Positions 30,808-37,345 of a stretch of 64,000 bases of DNA are shown here, piece by piece. The notes beneath the pieces were generated by a model. It ran no database searches, was not told the origin of the DNA, and saw only the letters and a list, made by a program, of their open reading frames with translations. Numbering within the stretch: the stretch's first letter is position 1; each line of letters starts with the position of its first letter. Location of the stretch: positions 1 through 64,000 of the forward strand of contig SCQL01000022.1 of the NCBI GenBank assembly GCA_004299235.1, read 5' to 3'. Both the position numbers and the translations under genes were made by a program. The stretch is from a bacterium (lineage in GTDB: Bacteria; Chloroflexota; Dormibacteria; Dormibacterales; Dormibacteraceae).

Positions 30808-31308
30808 ATGAGCACCATCCAGGGGCGGTCCATTCACGAGATCGAGCTGCCGAGACTCAACGGCGAACCGGCCAGCCTGTCGGAGTACGCCGGTCAGGTC
30901 GTCCTTGCGGTCAATGTCGCGTCACGCTGCGGGTTCACCCCTCAATACGCTGGACTCCAGGCCCTGCACGACCGCTACTCGAGCCGCGGCTTCACCGTGC
31001 TCGGGTTTCCCTGCAACCAGTTCTTCCACCAGGAGCCGGGGAATGCCGAGCAAATCCAGGAGTTCTGCCGTGTCAACTACGGCGTCACCTTCCCGTTGTT
31101 CGCCAAGCTGGACGTCAAGGGCGCTCACCAGCACCCGCTGTACGCGATTCTCAGCGAGTTCCCCGACGCCCAGGGCAAGGCCGGCAACGTGAGCTGGAAT
31201 TTCGAGAAGTTCCTGGTCGGCCGCGATGGGCGGGTGGGGCGTCGATTCCGGCCGAAAGTCGTCCCCGAAGACCCGCGGGTCGTCGAGGCGATCGAGGCGC
31301 TGCTCTAG
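30808..31308 (+). CDS. Glutathione peroxidase-like thiol peroxidase
   Basis: 166 residues. Peroxidatic Cys41 in NVASRCGFTPQY, GFPCNQFFHQEPG with the catalytic Gln, and WNFEKFLVGRDG with Trp and Asn, all conserved in the GPx family. It uses Cys, not Sec, at the active site. In bacteria without glutathione such enzymes run on thioredoxin. The selenocysteine-containing peroxiredoxin lies 2.3 kb away on the other strand, so this region has two peroxidases. Confidence 0.9.
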   Translation: MSTIQGRSIHEIELPRLNGEPASLSEYAGQVVLAVNVASRCGFTPQYAGLQALHDRYSSRGFTVLGFPCNQFFHQEPGNAEQIQEFCRVNYGVTFPLFAKLDVKGAHQHPLYAILSEFPDAQGKAGNVSWNFEKFLVGRDGRVGRRFRPKVVPEDPRVVEAIEALL

Positions 31309-31369: not shown

Positions 31370-32026
31370 GTGAGGCTCGTCGCCGAATCTTTCGCGTGGC
31401 CGTTTCGAGGCGCCTGGAGGTCCAGCTGGGCGCCCGGCCTCCTCGCGGTGCTGCTCCTGCCGATCGCCTTCGTGCCGCTCCTCGGCTATGCGATCGCGGC
31501 CACCCGCGCCGCCGCGAGCGATCCCGCGCACGGCCCCCCGAAGTGGACCATCTCCGCGCGTCTGCTGGCCGACGGGTTCTGGACCGCGATGGCGCTGGCC
31601 CTGCTCAGCGTGCCCTTCGCCCTAGTCCTGAACCCGCTCGCGGAGTTCCTGTTCGAAGCTCATCTCTGGCGGGTCGGTGACAGGTCGCAATCGGAGTTCT
31701 ACGCCCACCTGGCTTCAGGCTTCATCCTCGCGCTGCCGTGGGGTCTGGCTCTGCTGCTGCTCATGCCGCATGCGACGGCGCGTTTCGCGACCACCGCACG
31801 GCCCGGCGACCTTTTCGATTTCGGGGCGGCGATCCAGGGAGTGCGAAGGGGCTTCGCCGCGTGGAACCTCGCCGCCGCCGCGATGGTCACCGCGTGGGCC
31901 GCCGGCGTCGCCTGCGTCGGGCTGCTGTGCATCGGCCTCGTGCCGGGCATCTTCTACGCCATTCTTGTGAGCGCACATGCCAGCGCCGCGCTCCACGACC
32001 AGGATCCAGATTCACCCCCTCGGTGA
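31370..32026 (+). CDS. DUF4013-family membrane protein
   Basis: 218 residues, GTG start. Four to six hydrophobic segments (about 22-45, 68-92, 117-137, 163-205) and the pattern AWRSSWAPGLLAVLLLPIAF and LVPGIFYAILVSAHASAALH seen in DUF4013 proteins. Function unknown; members are poorly studied polytopic membrane proteins. Its 3' end overlaps pxpB by 50 bp. Confidence 0.7.
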   Translation: MRLVAESFAWPFRGAWRSSWAPGLLAVLLLPIAFVPLLGYAIAATRAAASDPAHGPPKWTISARLLADGFWTAMALALLSVPFALVLNPLAEFLFEAHLWRVGDRSQSEFYAHLASGFILALPWGLALLLLMPHATARFATTARPGDLFDFGAAIQGVRRGFAAWNLAAAAMVTAWAAGVACVGLLCIGLVPGIFYAILVSAHASAALHDQDPDSPPR

Positions 32027-32633
32027 CACCGCGCTCATGGCCGAGCTGGGAACGCGCCTCGACACCGCCGTCAACACACGCGCCATCGCCCTCGCCGCCG
32101 CGCTGAAGAAGCGGCGCGACGTGCGGCAGGCAATCGCCGGCTGTGCCAGCGTCACGGTACATTTCGACCCTGAGCAGACAACGTTCAAGGCGCTGGGCGC
32201 CGCGGTCACCAGGCTCGCGACCAAGCGTCCGCCGATGGCCGAGCCGGGGCGCCTTCACCGCATCCCCGTCGTCTACGACGGGCCGGATCTCGAAGCGGCC
32301 GCGGCGAGGCTCGGACTCCTTCCGGACAGGATCGCCGAGCTCCACTCGCGGCCGATCTATCGCGTCTTTCACGTCGGCTTCGTCCCGGGCTGGGCGTATC
32401 TCGGGCCTCTCCCCGAAGAGCTCGAACTGCCCCGACGCGACGTGCCCCGCACACGAGTGCCTGCCGGCTCGGTGGCCATCGCCGGGCGGCAGACCGGCAT
32501 CTATCCGCTGGCCGCGCCCGGTGGCTGGCATCTGATCGGACGCACCTCGGTGAAGCTGTTCCTGCCTGACTCCGACCCACCCTGCCTCTTCCGCGCGGGC
32601 GACCGCGTCAAGTTCTTCGCCGCGGGCGCGTGA
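31977..32633 (+). CDS. pxpB: 5-oxoprolinase subunit B (KipI-like)
   Basis: 218 residues. PxpB/KipI domain: IHPLGDTALMAELGTRLDTA, HRIPVVYDGPDLEAAAARLG, FHVGFVPGWAYLGPLPEEL, VAIAGRQTGIYPLAAPGGWH. With PxpA and PxpC it opens 5-oxoproline to glutamate using ATP. The start at 31977 lies inside the preceding gene, but no later start keeps the conserved GDTAL segment. GTGA overlap with pxpC. Confidence 0.92.
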   Translation: MPAPRSTTRIQIHPLGDTALMAELGTRLDTAVNTRAIALAAALKKRRDVRQAIAGCASVTVHFDPEQTTFKALGAAVTRLATKRPPMAEPGRLHRIPVVYDGPDLEAAAARLGLLPDRIAELHSRPIYRVFHVGFVPGWAYLGPLPEELELPRRDVPRTRVPAGSVAIAGRQTGIYPLAAPGGWHLIGRTSVKLFLPDSDPPCLFRAGDRVKFFAAGA

Positions 32634-33583
32634 CGAACGTCCTCCGAGTCAGAGAACCTGGTCTCCTCACCACCGTCCAGGACCTCGGGCGTCCGAACGC
32701 CGTCAGCGCCGGGGTGCCCGGCGGTGGCGCGATGGACCGGTTCGCCCACTCGGCGGCGAACCTGCTGGTGGGCAATGACGCCGGCGCCGCCACGCTCGAG
32801 TGCACGCTCACCGGCCCTCACCTCATCGCGGAGCGGCCCTGCCTGGTCGCCATCACGGGGGCCGACCTCGCCCCGCGAGTCAACGGCAGGCCGGGGCAGA
32901 CGTGGACGGGCATCCGCCTGGGCGAGGGCGACGCGCTCAGCTTCGGCGCCAGGCGCGTTGGCGCGCGGGCGTACATCGCGGTCGCAGGCGGCATCGCGGG
33001 CGACCGATGGCTCGGTTCGCTTTCGACCAACCTGATGGCGGCGCGGGGCGGCATGCGGGGGCGGGCCCTGAACGCGGGCGACCTCATCCGCACCGCCGCT
33101 GATCCTGCAATGCCGATGGTCGCCGGCGGCCGGCTCCACGCTCACATGCGACCCGGCTACCAGGATCACACGCTGCGCGCGATCGCCGGTCCTCACCTCG
33201 AACGCCTGGGAGCCAAGGGACGGCACCTGCTCTTCCATTCGGTGTTCACCGTCGGTCGCGAGGCCGACCGCATGGGTTACCGGTTGGAGGGGCCGAGCCT
33301 GGCGGCGTCAGGCGACGAGCTGCTGTCCTTCGGGCTCGCGGCCGGCGCGGTCCAGGTGCCGCCTGGCGGCGGTCCGATCCTTTTGATGGCCGACCACCAG
33401 ACCGCGGGCGGCTACCCGGTCGTCGCCACCGTGGTCAGCGCAGCCCTCCCGATCGCCGCCCAGCTCGCGCCGGGCGACGAGCTCCGCTTTGCGGAGATCA
33501 GCGTCGAGGATGCGGTGCGCTTGCGCCGCGCTCTGCAGGCGGCGCTGGAATCGCTGCGAGCGGGCAGCCCGGCTCCGTCATGA
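32630..33583 (+). CDS. pxpC: 5-oxoprolinase subunit C
   Basis: 317 residues, GTG overlapping the pxpB stop. PxpC/KipA family: PGLLTTVQDLGRPNAVSAGV, GGAMDRFAHSAANLLVGNDA, AYIAVAGGI, then MGYRLEGPSL and ILLMADHQTAGGYPVVATV. It forms the carboxylase-like half of the 5-oxoprolinase complex. The third subunit gene, pxpA, is 2.1 kb away on the opposite strand instead of adjacent. Its 3' end overlaps that of the selenoprotein gene by 6 bp (convergent). Confidence 0.93.
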   Translation: MTNVLRVREPGLLTTVQDLGRPNAVSAGVPGGGAMDRFAHSAANLLVGNDAGAATLECTLTGPHLIAERPCLVAITGADLAPRVNGRPGQTWTGIRLGEGDALSFGARRVGARAYIAVAGGIAGDRWLGSLSTNLMAARGGMRGRALNAGDLIRTAADPAMPMVAGGRLHAHMRPGYQDHTLRAIAGPHLERLGAKGRHLLFHSVFTVGREADRMGYRLEGPSLAASGDELLSFGLAAGAVQVPPGGGPILLMADHQTAGGYPVVATVVSAALPIAAQLAPGDELRFAEISVEDAVRLRRALQAALESLRAGSPAPS

Positions 33584-34069
33584 CGCCTCGGCCGGCCCGG
33601 CGGCTTTCCGCGCTTCGTTGATCACGGCGTCGTAGTCGGGTTGCGGCTGCTCTTTGGATCCCACCCAGGTCCAGCGCACGATGCCGTCGTGGTCGATGAC
33701 GAAGACGGTCCTCCTGGCCATCCCGGAGTAGCCCTCCACGTCATCGCGCCGCACGCCGTAATCGGTGACCATCTTCCGCTCGAAGTCACCGATCAGCTCG
33801 AACGGCAGGCCGCCGAGCTCCTTGGCGAAAGCCTGGTGCGAGAAGACGGAGTCGACGCTGATGCCGTAGATGCCGATGCCGTCCGCGGCTGCCGCCTCGT
33901 GCCTTGACCGAAACTCGGTCAACTCCATCCTTCAACCACCGGTGAAGTCGAGGACGTAGAAAAGGAAGACGAGCGCTTTGTGTTGGGCGAGGGCTTCGGC
34001 GAGCGTCAGCTCCTGGCCCGCGGTCGTCGGCAGCTTGAACTCGGGAGCTCTGTCCCCAACCTGCAGCAC
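33578..34069 (-). CDS. Peroxiredoxin with selenocysteine at the peroxidatic site (UGA recoded)
   Basis: 163 residues with one in-frame TGA (33934-33932) at codon 46. Without recoding it would be two fragments: a 45-residue N-terminus and a piece restarting at ATG 33928. Read through, it is a complete AhpC/TSA domain: DRAPEFKLPTTAGQELTL, FLFYVLDFTGG-U-RMELTEFRS, IGISVDS, PFELIGDFERKMVTDYGV, RRTVFVIDHDG. Sec46 takes the place of the peroxidatic Cys in DFTxxC; the conserved Thr43 and Arg119 or Arg120 are present, and the usual Pro before the loop is Val39. There are no cysteines, so it acts as a 1-Sec enzyme reduced by an outside thiol. A SECIS-like hairpin follows the UGA. GTG 34069 has TAGACT 7 bp upstream. 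Alternative: nonsense mutation or sequencing error. Confidence 0.88.
33904..33922 (-). promoter_or_regulatory. Candidate bacterial SECIS hairpin
   Basis: On the minus strand, 9 nt after the UGA, TTGACCG-AGTTT-CGGTCAA forms a perfect 7-bp stem with a 5-nt loop. The loop starts 16 nt after the UGA and has G as its second base, within the limits known for bacterial SECIS elements (loop about 16-37 nt downstream, G among the first two loop bases). It lies inside the coding sequence, as bacterial SECIS must. Confidence 0.8.
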
Positions 34070-34076
34070 GCAGGAA

Positions 34077-34082
34077 AGTCTA
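34077..34082 (-). promoter_or_regulatory. -10 hexamer of the selenoprotein peroxiredoxin gene (leaderless layout)
   Basis: Minus-strand TAGACT ends 7 bp before the GTG at 34069. Its TAG is also the stop codon of the upstream GNAT gene, so the peroxiredoxin may have its own promoter within the operon. Confidence 0.5.
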
Positions 34083-34895
34083 TTCGGCCCCGGTCCGCTG
34101 GCGTTCCAGGACGTACCAGCCCGACTTCGTCGCGCCCATGACGCTGTAGCCCGCGTCGAACGCATCGACCAGCGCGGTGCGCACCGCCATCCGCCACGAG
34201 CGTGCCAGCGCGGGATCGGAGTGCCGGATGGCGACGATGTCATCAGGCACCTGGCACAGAAGGACGCGCGCGGATGACGGCGTCGCCACCGGCTCGCCTT
34301 GCGCGCCGACACGGACCACCCGGGCCGCGCCCTCGCCGAGCAACCCGTCGAGCGACGGTTCGGCGGCGCGGCCGCCGGCCGCGGATTCAGCCTGCGGCGA
34401 TTCGAGCTCCCAGCTGATGAGCAGGCGGTCGGACTCTTCGCCGGCATTGATCCCGTCCGTCATCTCGCCGTAGAAGTTGACCAAATACCTGCCGGCCCGG
34501 GCGCCAAGCTTGGTCAGGTTGAAGTAGGCGTTGCGGCGCACCAATGGGTCGGTCGTCCACTCGATGACCTTGACTGCACGGTCCAGGCACCACCCGCGCT
34601 GATGCTGCTTGAGCTCGAACCCGAGCCCGCGCGCGTCGCTGCCGGTGCTCACCCCGAGGATGTGCGAGTGCAGGTGCAGCTCGTGAGGGGGAACGCCGCC
34701 AAGCCAGCCGACGAGTCCCCCGACGAGCCGCTGATCCACGTAGGCGCCGGCGACGTAGTTGCCCGAACGCGCAAGCGCCCTGAGCACGTCGGAGCTGATG
34801 GGCGGCTCACCCGGCCGGCCCCAAACCTCTGCCAGCAGCCGTTCCAGCTCGCGCAGGTCTCCGAGCTCGCTCAGCTCCAGGATCAGGACGGCCAC
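34080..34895 (-). CDS. Predicted GNAT-superfamily acetyltransferase (COG3375-like)
   Basis: 271 residues from GTG 34895. SGNYVAGAYVDQRLVGGLVG and LHSHILGVSTGSDARGLGFE followed by LKQHQRGWCLDRAVKVIEWT match the acyl-CoA-binding core of a little-studied GNAT family. FNLTKLGARAGRYLVNFYGE and RLLISWELES are conserved parts of that family. Substrate unknown. It lies 7 bp after a membrane protein gene and 10 bp before the peroxiredoxin gene. Confidence 0.78.
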   Translation of the reverse strand: MAVLILELSELGDLRELERLLAEVWGRPGEPPISSDVLRALARSGNYVAGAYVDQRLVGGLVGWLGGVPPHELHLHSHILGVSTGSDARGLGFELKQHQRGWCLDRAVKVIEWTTDPLVRRNAYFNLTKLGARAGRYLVNFYGEMTDGINAGEESDRLLISWELESPQAESAAGGRAAEPSLDGLLGEGAARVVRVGAQGEPVATPSSARVLLCQVPDDIVAIRHSDPALARSWRMAVRTALVDAFDAGYSVMGATKSGWYVLERQRTGAE

Positions 34896-34902
34896 CCCCA
34901 AA

Positions 34903-35685
34903 CTATGCGATCCGCAGCCGCCGGCCCACCGCCAGCGAAAGTCCCTGCAGCGCCAGCGCGACGACCACCGCCGCGGTGAACGCGACCGCGATGCCGTGCC
35001 CGACGAGCAGCGCCGAGAGCATGAGAAAGAACGCGGCGAACGAGAACAGTCCCAGCAGGAGCCCACGCAGCGTGCCGACCGCTGGCGCCGCGCCATGGAC
35101 GCGATGGGCAAACGCGGCCAGCACGGTGGCATAGAGAGGAAAGGGCGCGAGCAATCCCGCCAATCGCGGGCCGAGCAGCGGCGCCATGCCGGTCAGCACG
35201 ATGACGAACGCGGTCGCCGCCGCCATGCGTGCGGGAAGATCCCAGCGCGGAAACGCAACCGGCGGCGAAGCCGTTACTTCGCGGCCCGGCATCAGGGCAA
35301 GGCACGCGACGAGCACCAGGACCATCGCCACAAAGGTGAGCGGCGCCGAGAGCACGACGAGATCGAGCAGGGCCGTGACCACCAGGAAGCCGGCGGTTGC
35401 GATCAGGAGCGACGGTCCCCAGCCGCGACGCTGCGCGACCCACGCATACGCCAGGCAGAACGCGGCCTGGGAGGCCGTTGCGGCCATGATCCCGACCGCG
35501 GCGGTGGCCGCGAAACGCGGCCCCGGGCCGAGAGCGAGGAAGAACGCGACCGGCGCCGACGTGAACGGGATGCCGACCAGCCAGCCACCGATCTCCGAGC
35601 CCCAACGCCGGCCGGCCAGGCTGGCCGCGCCCACGAGAACCGGCGTCAGGATGAGCTTCAGGGCGAGGGTTTCGGCGGCTCCCAC
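34903..35685 (-). CDS. Polytopic membrane protein of unknown function
   Basis: 260 residues, GTG start directly after the pxpA stop codon. About seven to eight hydrophobic helices; recognisable blocks are SLAGRRWGSEIGGWLVGIPF-TSAP and LGPRLAGLLAPFPLYATVLA. This looks like a small conserved integral membrane family. A transport role with the flanking pxpA is possible but not shown. A hairpin (GGCTCCC/GGGAGCC, 35677-35698) spans the pxpA stop and this start. Confidence 0.65.
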   Translation of the reverse strand: MGAAETLALKLILTPVLVGAASLAGRRWGSEIGGWLVGIPFTSAPVAFFLALGPGPRFAATAAVGIMAATASQAAFCLAYAWVAQRRGWGPSLLIATAGFLVVTALLDLVVLSAPLTFVAMVLVLVACLALMPGREVTASPPVAFPRWDLPARMAAATAFVIVLTGMAPLLGPRLAGLLAPFPLYATVLAAFAHRVHGAAPAVGTLRGLLLGLFSFAAFFLMLSALLVGHGIAVAFTAAVVVALALQGLSLAVGRRLRIA

Positions 35686-36378
35686 CTAGGAGGGAGCCGC
35701 GCGGCGGGCCAGCGGACCGGTTGCCACGCCGGCCTCGCGCAGACCCTGGCGCACGCTGGCGGCGATTTGCGCGGCTCCCGGGGTGTCGCCGTGAACGCAG
35801 ATCGTGTCGTATTGCCCCGATCGCGCCAGCCGCACCGCCTGCTGGGCGGCGAGGGCTGGATTGAGCACCGCGCCGGGCTGCGTCCGCGGCGCGAGGCGGC
35901 CATCGGGCAGCAGCAGGCGATCGGCGAACCCCTCACGGTAACCGGGGATGCCGGCCCGCTCGGCGGCGGCGAGGATCTCGAATCCCGGCTGGCCGAGAAG
36001 CCCGACCCCATGCGCTTTGGCAACCCGCGCCACAGCGTCGGCGACAGCCGGGTCGCTCTGGCAGCGGTGGTACAGGGCGCCGTGCGGCTTCACGTAGGCA
36101 ATGGGAGCCACCGCCGCGAGGCCCGCGACCTGGAAGGCGACGAGCGCCTCGATCTCCGGTGGAGACAGCGATCGATCCACGCGCCCGTGACCGGCGCGGT
36201 CGTCATAACCGGGATGGGCGCCGACCTCGACCCCCAGCGCGCGGCACCGCCAAGCCGTGGCGATCGTGATCGAGACCGACCCCGCGTGCACGCCGCAGGC
36301 GATGCTGGCGCTGTCCACGCTGGCCAGGATCGCCTCATCCGCGCCGGCGCCCTCTCCCAGCTCGGAGTTGAGGTTCAA
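35686..36378 (-). CDS. pxpA: 5-oxoprolinase subunit A (LamB/YcsF family)
   Basis: 230 residues. [10 protein letters not shown], then SIACGVHAGS, VEVGAHPGYDDRAGHGRVDR, AYVKPHGALYH, EGFADRLLLPDGRLAPR and TICVHGDTPGA are PxpA signatures with the conserved Asp, His and Glu of the YcsF barrel. It completes 5-oxoprolinase with PxpB and PxpC encoded nearby on the other strand. The ATG overlaps the moaB stop (ATGA), an unusual partnership. Confidence 0.93.
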   Translation of the reverse strand: MNLNSELGEGAGADEAILASVDSASIACGVHAGSVSITIATAWRCRALGVEVGAHPGYDDRAGHGRVDRSLSPPEIEALVAFQVAGLAAVAPIAYVKPHGALYHRCQSDPAVADAVARVAKAHGVGLLGQPGFEILAAAERAGIPGYREGFADRLLLPDGRLAPRTQPGAVLNPALAAQQAVRLARSGQYDTICVHGDTPGAAQIAASVRQGLREAGVATGPLARRAAPS

Positions 36379-36848
36379 TGCGAGGTCTGGCCCCGGAGCA
36401 GCTGCACGGCGTGGTCGAGCACCGGCATCACGGCCAGCAGCGACTCGGTCGCGCCCCTGACGCTGCCGGGGACGTTGATGATCAAGCTCCTTCCGCGCAC
36501 GCCCGCCATGGCGCGGGATAGAGACGCCATCGGTGTGCTCGCGGCGCCGGCGCGCCGCATCGCCTCGCCGATGCCCGGCACCTCGTAATCGATGACGGCC
36601 GCTGTGGCCTGCGGCGTGACATCGCGAGCGGCGAGCCCGGTGCCGCCCGTCGTGACGACCAGGTCGGCGCCACGCGACGCGGCCGTGACGATCGCGGTCG
36701 TGATCCGCTCCCTCACATCAGGCACCACCTCCGGACCGCTCGCCTCGAAGCCGGCCTGGCTGAGCAGGCGCACGAGCTCGGGCCCGCTGACGTCGTCCCT
36801 GGTGCCCGCCGAGACGCCATCGCTGACGGTGATGACGTGAGCGTTCAC
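36375..36848 (-). CDS. moaB: MoaB/Mog-family molybdopterin adenylyltransferase
   Basis: 157 residues from GTG 36848, which overlaps the moaC stop (GTGA). MoCF domain: [40 protein letters not shown], then [20 protein letters not shown]. It activates molybdopterin by adenylylation or has a related step in Moco synthesis. Upstream codons in the same frame fall inside moaC and are unlikely to be used. Confidence 0.9.
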
Positions 36849-37345
36849 GGTTGGCTCGAGGGCCCCCGGCGCGCGCCGGGACGCTTCCACGTCCCCGAGC
36901 GGCCGCCTGACTTCTCGAGCAGACGGACCACCTCCAGGTAGACGCCGCGCTCGACTCCCTTGGTCATGTCGATCAGCGTCAAACCGGCCACCGAAGCCGC
37001 GGTCAGCGCTTCCATCTCAACGCCTGTCTGCCCGACCACGCGAGCCCGAGCGAGCACCCGGATGGCGCCGGGCACGAACTCGAAATCGACCGCCACGCTC
37101 GTGAGCGGCAGCGGGTGACACAGCGGGATGAGCTCTGACGTGCGCTTGGCGGCCATGATTCCCGCCACCCGGGCGACCTGGAGGGCGTCTCCCTTGGCGG
37201 TCCCCTCGCGCACCGCACGCAGGGTGTCGGGAGCCATGCGCACCAGGCACTCCGCCAGCGCTTCGCGTGTGGTCGAAGCCTTGTCCGCGACATCGACCAT
37301 GCGCGCCGCCCCCTTCTCGTCCAGGTGCGTCAGCCGGTTCGTCAC
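36845..37345 (-). CDS. moaC: Cyclic pyranopterin monophosphate synthase
   Basis: 166 residues, GTG start with TATCCT 6 bp upstream. MoaC motifs: [37 protein letters not shown] with active-site residues, [30 protein letters not shown]. It makes cPMP, the first pterin of molybdenum cofactor synthesis, with MoaA (not in the window). The C-terminal 20 residues are arginine/proline-rich. First gene of a six-gene minus-strand run ending in the peroxiredoxin. Confidence 0.94.

Follow-up and report, generated by a model that had tools for sequence, protein, structure and literature searches.

The window analyzed here, a 64,000-nucleotide stretch of a Dormibacteria draft genome, carries on its minus strand a reading frame (34069–33578) that is interrupted only once, with 45 residues preceding a single TGA (33934–33932) and 117 more residues following it up to a terminal TGA. 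When the internal TGA is read as selenocysteine (Sec), the product matches nearly the whole PF00578 AhpC-TSA profile (113.8 bits, residues 4–133), which bears out the proposal of a first-pass annotation that two same-frame pieces, split by nothing but this codon, make up one complete 163-residue AhpC/TSA domain. That annotation had also expected automatic gene calling to break the gene, and a mechanical listing of open reading frames does yield two halves, including 33578–33928. The features of the locus are the following:

33578..34069, minus strand, predicted Sec-containing peroxiredoxin gene (GTG start at 34069, stop TGA at 33580–33578, 163 residues, Sec46)
33932..33934, minus strand, in-frame TGA, predicted Sec codon at the peroxidatic position, kept across orthologues
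33953..33955, minus strand, Val39, which replaces the proline of PxxxTxxC, invariant in a 43-row alignment
33710..33712, minus strand, Arg120, the expected active-site arginine, invariant among orthologues
33905..33921, minus strand, putative bacterial SECIS hairpin with a GUU apical loop, the best consensus hairpin in the gene
35686..36378, minus strand, pxpA-like gene (LamB/YcsF) upstream of the peroxiredoxin, from Pfam and conserved order
32630..33583, plus strand, pxpC-like gene converging on the peroxiredoxin and overlapping its last 6 bases, from Pfam and synteny
31977..32633, plus strand, pxpB-like gene of the same convergent pair as pxpC, from Pfam and synteny

The TGA falls where the peroxidatic cysteine is expected, directly after DFTGG in the motif DFTGG-U-RMELTEF, and homologues have either TGA or Cys at this place; the protein thus carries the (T/S)xxU signature of Sec-containing peroxiredoxins. 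Thr or Ser at position 43, Sec46, and Arg120 are retained across the aligned orthologues, in agreement with the earlier claim that Thr43 and the late active-site arginine are kept. The read-through translation contains no Cys at all, as had been noticed, and nearly all members of the family likewise lack any other Cys.

The closest relatives of this peroxiredoxin belong to Candidatus Dormibacterota/Dormibacteria (Chloroflexota), and distant ones are found in other Chloroflexota, Terriglobia, Deltaproteobacteria, and Binatia. An orthologue is present in 35 of the 37 same-family genomes, the two others being only 71% and 78% complete, and all 35 orthologues contain the TGA, which is found again in the more distant orthologues of another family of the same class (f3). 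Read codon by codon, 43 orthologues drawn from same-family and f3 relatives all have TGA at the Sec46 column. A scan of one genome per species over about 85,000 species, based on two peptide patterns in which the Sec codon was left free, returned 67 confirmed loci (a set that partly overlaps the 43 orthologues), 66 of them with TGA; the sole TGC belongs to an archaeal protein devoid of the FYVxDF motif. The alignment that had been proposed as a check for Cys or U among homologues therefore gives TGA at this column, with Cys in more distant peroxiredoxins, and because the same codon recurs in every orthologue read, the in-frame TGA lies far beyond chance.

The surroundings of the gene are conserved as well. 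In most of the family, the order is moaC–mog–pxpA–(membrane protein, unnamed gene)–prx, facing pxpC–pxpB, and in outer family members some of these genes are absent or beyond reach. The 5-oxoprolinase subunits pxpA, pxpB, and pxpC thus flank the peroxiredoxin in most of the family (31977–36890 in the window). A Cys-type glutathione peroxidase (SRCGFTPQ, 30808–31308) also lies near the Sec peroxiredoxin in the window, and in a few relatives it occurs in this neighborhood too.

Downstream of the UGA, the first-pass annotation had pointed to a SECIS-like hairpin between 33950 and 33890. A hairpin is indeed predicted from the sequence directly 3' of the UGA, as in bacterial selenoproteins, albeit shorter than this interval: its stem begins 10 nt past the UGA and pairs 33921–33915 with 33911–33905 (UUGACCGA-GUU-UCGGUCAA). 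Taken as a single sequence, the window's hairpin is no more stable than shuffles (z −0.5 to −1.3), whereas the alignment of 35 orthologues reveals two compensated pairs with changes on both sides, carried by only a few lineages. Across these orthologues, 89.5% of the alignment cells in the hairpin pair, vs. 20–59% when the partner strand is slid. The consensus hairpin is also the most stable of 133 windows along the gene, a comparison in which the mean single-sequence energy is ordinary at this place and in which high sequence conservation favors consensus stability. In f3 sequences, a different stem (CACCTC/GAGGTG) occupies the same place. The hairpin resembles a bacterial SECIS and may function as one.

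Could the TGA have been created by pseudogenization or by a sequencing or assembly error? Nonsense changes and draft-assembly errors do happen, and the window comes from a 100-contig draft (2.87 Mb, 96.8% complete), but dozens of independently made assemblies, with orthologues of as little as about 30% identity, share this TGA at this very position, and it is therefore not a sequencing error. Moreover, against 38 family members, the median pN/pS amounts to 0.119/0.489 for the part preceding the TGA and 0.121/0.489 for the part following it; purifying selection acts on the two parts with the same strength, which leaves this explanation with a negligible probability and sustains the earlier judgment that a pseudogene is unlikely. 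It would be just as hard to believe in two separate proteins, one a short fragment made from the N-terminal part and the other made from the C-terminal part and starting at the ATG at 33928: this ATG does lie two codons past the TGA and does open the downstream half in the mechanical listing, but a start codon stands there in just 3 of the 38 family orthologues, the others having Thr, Ser, or Asn codons, and the active site would be split between the two products. Neither a pseudogene, nor a sequencing error, nor a separate downstream gene can explain the codon conservation, the selection, the gene order, and the hairpin.

If the codon is read through, the genome is equipped to read it as Sec. 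The first-pass annotation had proposed to search the assembly for selA, selB, selD, and tRNA-Sec, the absence of which would have spoken against a selenoprotein, and all four are present: a tRNA-Sec with anticodon tca is detected both by covariance model and by ARAGORN, contig C1 holds selA (492 bits) and, immediately behind it, selB (353 bits), and selD (364 bits) lies on contig C9 (C9:225013–225951). This selD has an in-frame TGA of its own, within SHGAG-U-ACK, which makes it a Sec gene as well, and a second selenoprotein candidate, a redoxin with TGA in RGDW-U-PYC, is encoded on contig C31 (C31:90317–90748). Given the tRNA-Sec, the selA–selB pair, the TGA-bearing selD, and this second TGA-containing redoxin, UGA is very probably decoded as Sec by this organism. 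The tRNA-Sec gene has a tyrosine-recombinase-like gene (L001 346–1383) as its neighbor, an arrangement seen in integrations at selC. Among relatives, selA was found in 53 of 61 genomes, including every sampled member of f3; four of the 37 family genomes, all of them fragmented drafts and one of them (G018) 95% complete, have the TGA gene and give no selA match. In principle, a residue other than Sec could be inserted at the TGA, such as Trp or, through a near-cognate tRNA, Cys, the identity of residue 46 being predicted from the sequence. Nevertheless, the complete Sec machinery with its Sec-type selD sits in the same genome, the position is that of the catalytic Cys of homologues, and TGA also terminates this gene and other genes, so that such a reading appears very improbable.

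As a kind, Sec peroxiredoxins with a TxxU motif have long been known, from Eubacterium acidaminophilum, from the Sargasso Sea survey, and from later catalogues (PMC13188914, PMC9312934, PMC1088965, PMC1794560); what is distinctive here is the near-total lack of Cys together with the Val that stands in for the signature proline. The proline of PxxxTxxU is described as highly conserved in Sec peroxiredoxins (PMC13188914); it is a typical feature rather than the criterion by which catalogues file them. In the present family, Val39 occupies this position in 43 of 43 aligned orthologues, as the first-pass annotation had read it in the window. In 400 Chloroflexota genomes, the pattern FYVxDF(T/S)xx followed by a TGA or Cys codon was matched 36 times with TGA and once with TGC, the latter being a chance match in a 60-residue frame that encodes no peroxiredoxin; true Val-form peroxiredoxins thus have TGA in 36 of 36 cases. 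The Pro-form pattern, searched in a sample of 151 Chloroflexota genomes, gave 8 TGA and 12 Cys among 20 matches, and in neither count are the genomes phylogenetically independent. Sec thus also occurs together with Pro, one close relative (FYPFDFSPGU, L147) included, and the counts suggest that Val arose within a Sec clade. Other Chloroflexota (G109, G124, G180, G071, G087, G070, and G139) encode FYPGDFTFV-TGA peroxiredoxins, apparently another Sec group that keeps the motif proline. One may go further and imagine a selenium-obligate clade, in which Pro gave way to Val only after Sec was in place, the other Cys were then lost, no reversion to Cys followed, and Val marks a catalytic geometry that selenium alone can serve; we regard this scenario as tentative and, for the time being, doubtful.

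The peroxiredoxin fold is a confident prediction: the AlphaFold model has a mean pLDDT of 94.1, places position 46 in the first turn of a helix (residues 44–62) with Thr43 just before it, and retrieves peroxiredoxins as its best solved matches in Foldseek, Sulfolobus Bcp4 being the first. By sequence profile, the closest solved structures are archaeal PrxQ/Bcp proteins, with Mycobacterium tuberculosis AhpE lower in rank. With PrxU of E. acidaminophilum (NF040737; COG1225/PF00578), the window protein shares the AhpC/TSA fold, a (T/S)xxU Sec, and a UGA with a downstream hairpin, but it has Val in place of the motif Pro and its family usually has no other Cys; its score against the NF040737 equivalog model is 55 bits, for a cut-off of 270. 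The archaeal PrxQ/Bcp proteins (Aeropyrum pernix 2cx3/4gqc, Sulfolobus Bcp4 3hjp), the nearest by both profile and fold, have Cys at the peroxidatic position and Pro in the motif, where the window protein has Sec and Val. Five residues past the peroxidatic position, the A. pernix and Sulfolobus tokodaii proteins carry a second Cys, whereas Thr51 takes the place of this helix 2 resolving Cys of PrxQ in the window protein. AhpE (1xxu), a one-Cys peroxiredoxin of similar size whose profile match covers residues 1–138, differs by having Cys instead of Sec; it works by a one-Cys mechanism with mycothiol/mycoredoxin as reductant. Finally, the UxxC Prx-like thiol:disulfide oxidoreductases belong to the same superfamily and are also selenoproteins, and one is encoded in this very genome (the RGDW-U-PYC redoxin), but it is a separate gene, about 33% identical, with its Sec in UxxC.

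From this comparison, a mechanism can be proposed. A ribosome assisted by SelB, tRNA-Sec, and the downstream hairpin would insert Sec at residue 46; the Sec46 selenolate, positioned by Thr43 and Arg120, would attack H2O2 or an alkyl hydroperoxide and be converted into a selenenic acid. Because the protein has no other Cys, this selenenic acid would need an outside thiol for its reduction, which could come from a protein resembling glutaredoxin or thioredoxin or else be a low-molecular-weight thiol. As nearly all members share this lack, one-Sec peroxidases that depend on a reductant from outside are to be expected in the family at large. As to candidates for this role, a mycoredoxin-like match in the genome (74 bits, under the cut-off of 89.5) turned out to belong to a glutaredoxin–thioredoxin-reductase fusion, and an MshC-like match scored nearly equally against the MshC and CysS models, under the cut-off of both. 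The fusion gene lies about 2 kb from the RGDW-U-PYC redoxin.

Catalytic competence is not guaranteed, since Val replaces a Pro that is held to be a conserved part of the peroxiredoxin motif. The replaced proline and the missing resolving Cys could thus also be read as the marks of a selenoprotein with a peroxidase fold whose main function lies elsewhere, for example as a redox sensor or relay, a reading that shares the Sec part of the preferred one and departs from it in function only. Val39 is invariant where Pro is expected, and the syntenic genes are those of 5-oxoprolinase and molybdopterin, with no known reductases among them; yet, Thr/Ser43, Sec46, and Arg120 are retained, and there are known one-Cys peroxiredoxins that do without a resolving Cys, for which reason we consider a sensor or relay unlikely. 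Of the refuting conditions named in the first-pass annotation, none was borne out by the sequence-based checks. Very probably, then, the window gene does encode a peroxiredoxin that is a selenoprotein, with Sec insertion and peroxidase activity as its predicted properties, and we hold with high confidence that its product is a functional one-Sec enzyme similar to PrxQ and AhpE, passed on by vertical descent within Dormibacteria.

A search of one literature collection for Dormibacteria and selenocysteine found no paper on Dormibacteria selenoproteins. The present results predict Sec in a conserved antioxidant enzyme throughout this uncultured soil lineage, and the TGA in the peroxiredoxin explains why gene callers would split the gene. 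The tight pairing of Sec and Val at the motif proline would offer a clean test of the role of selenium in peroxiredoxin catalysis.
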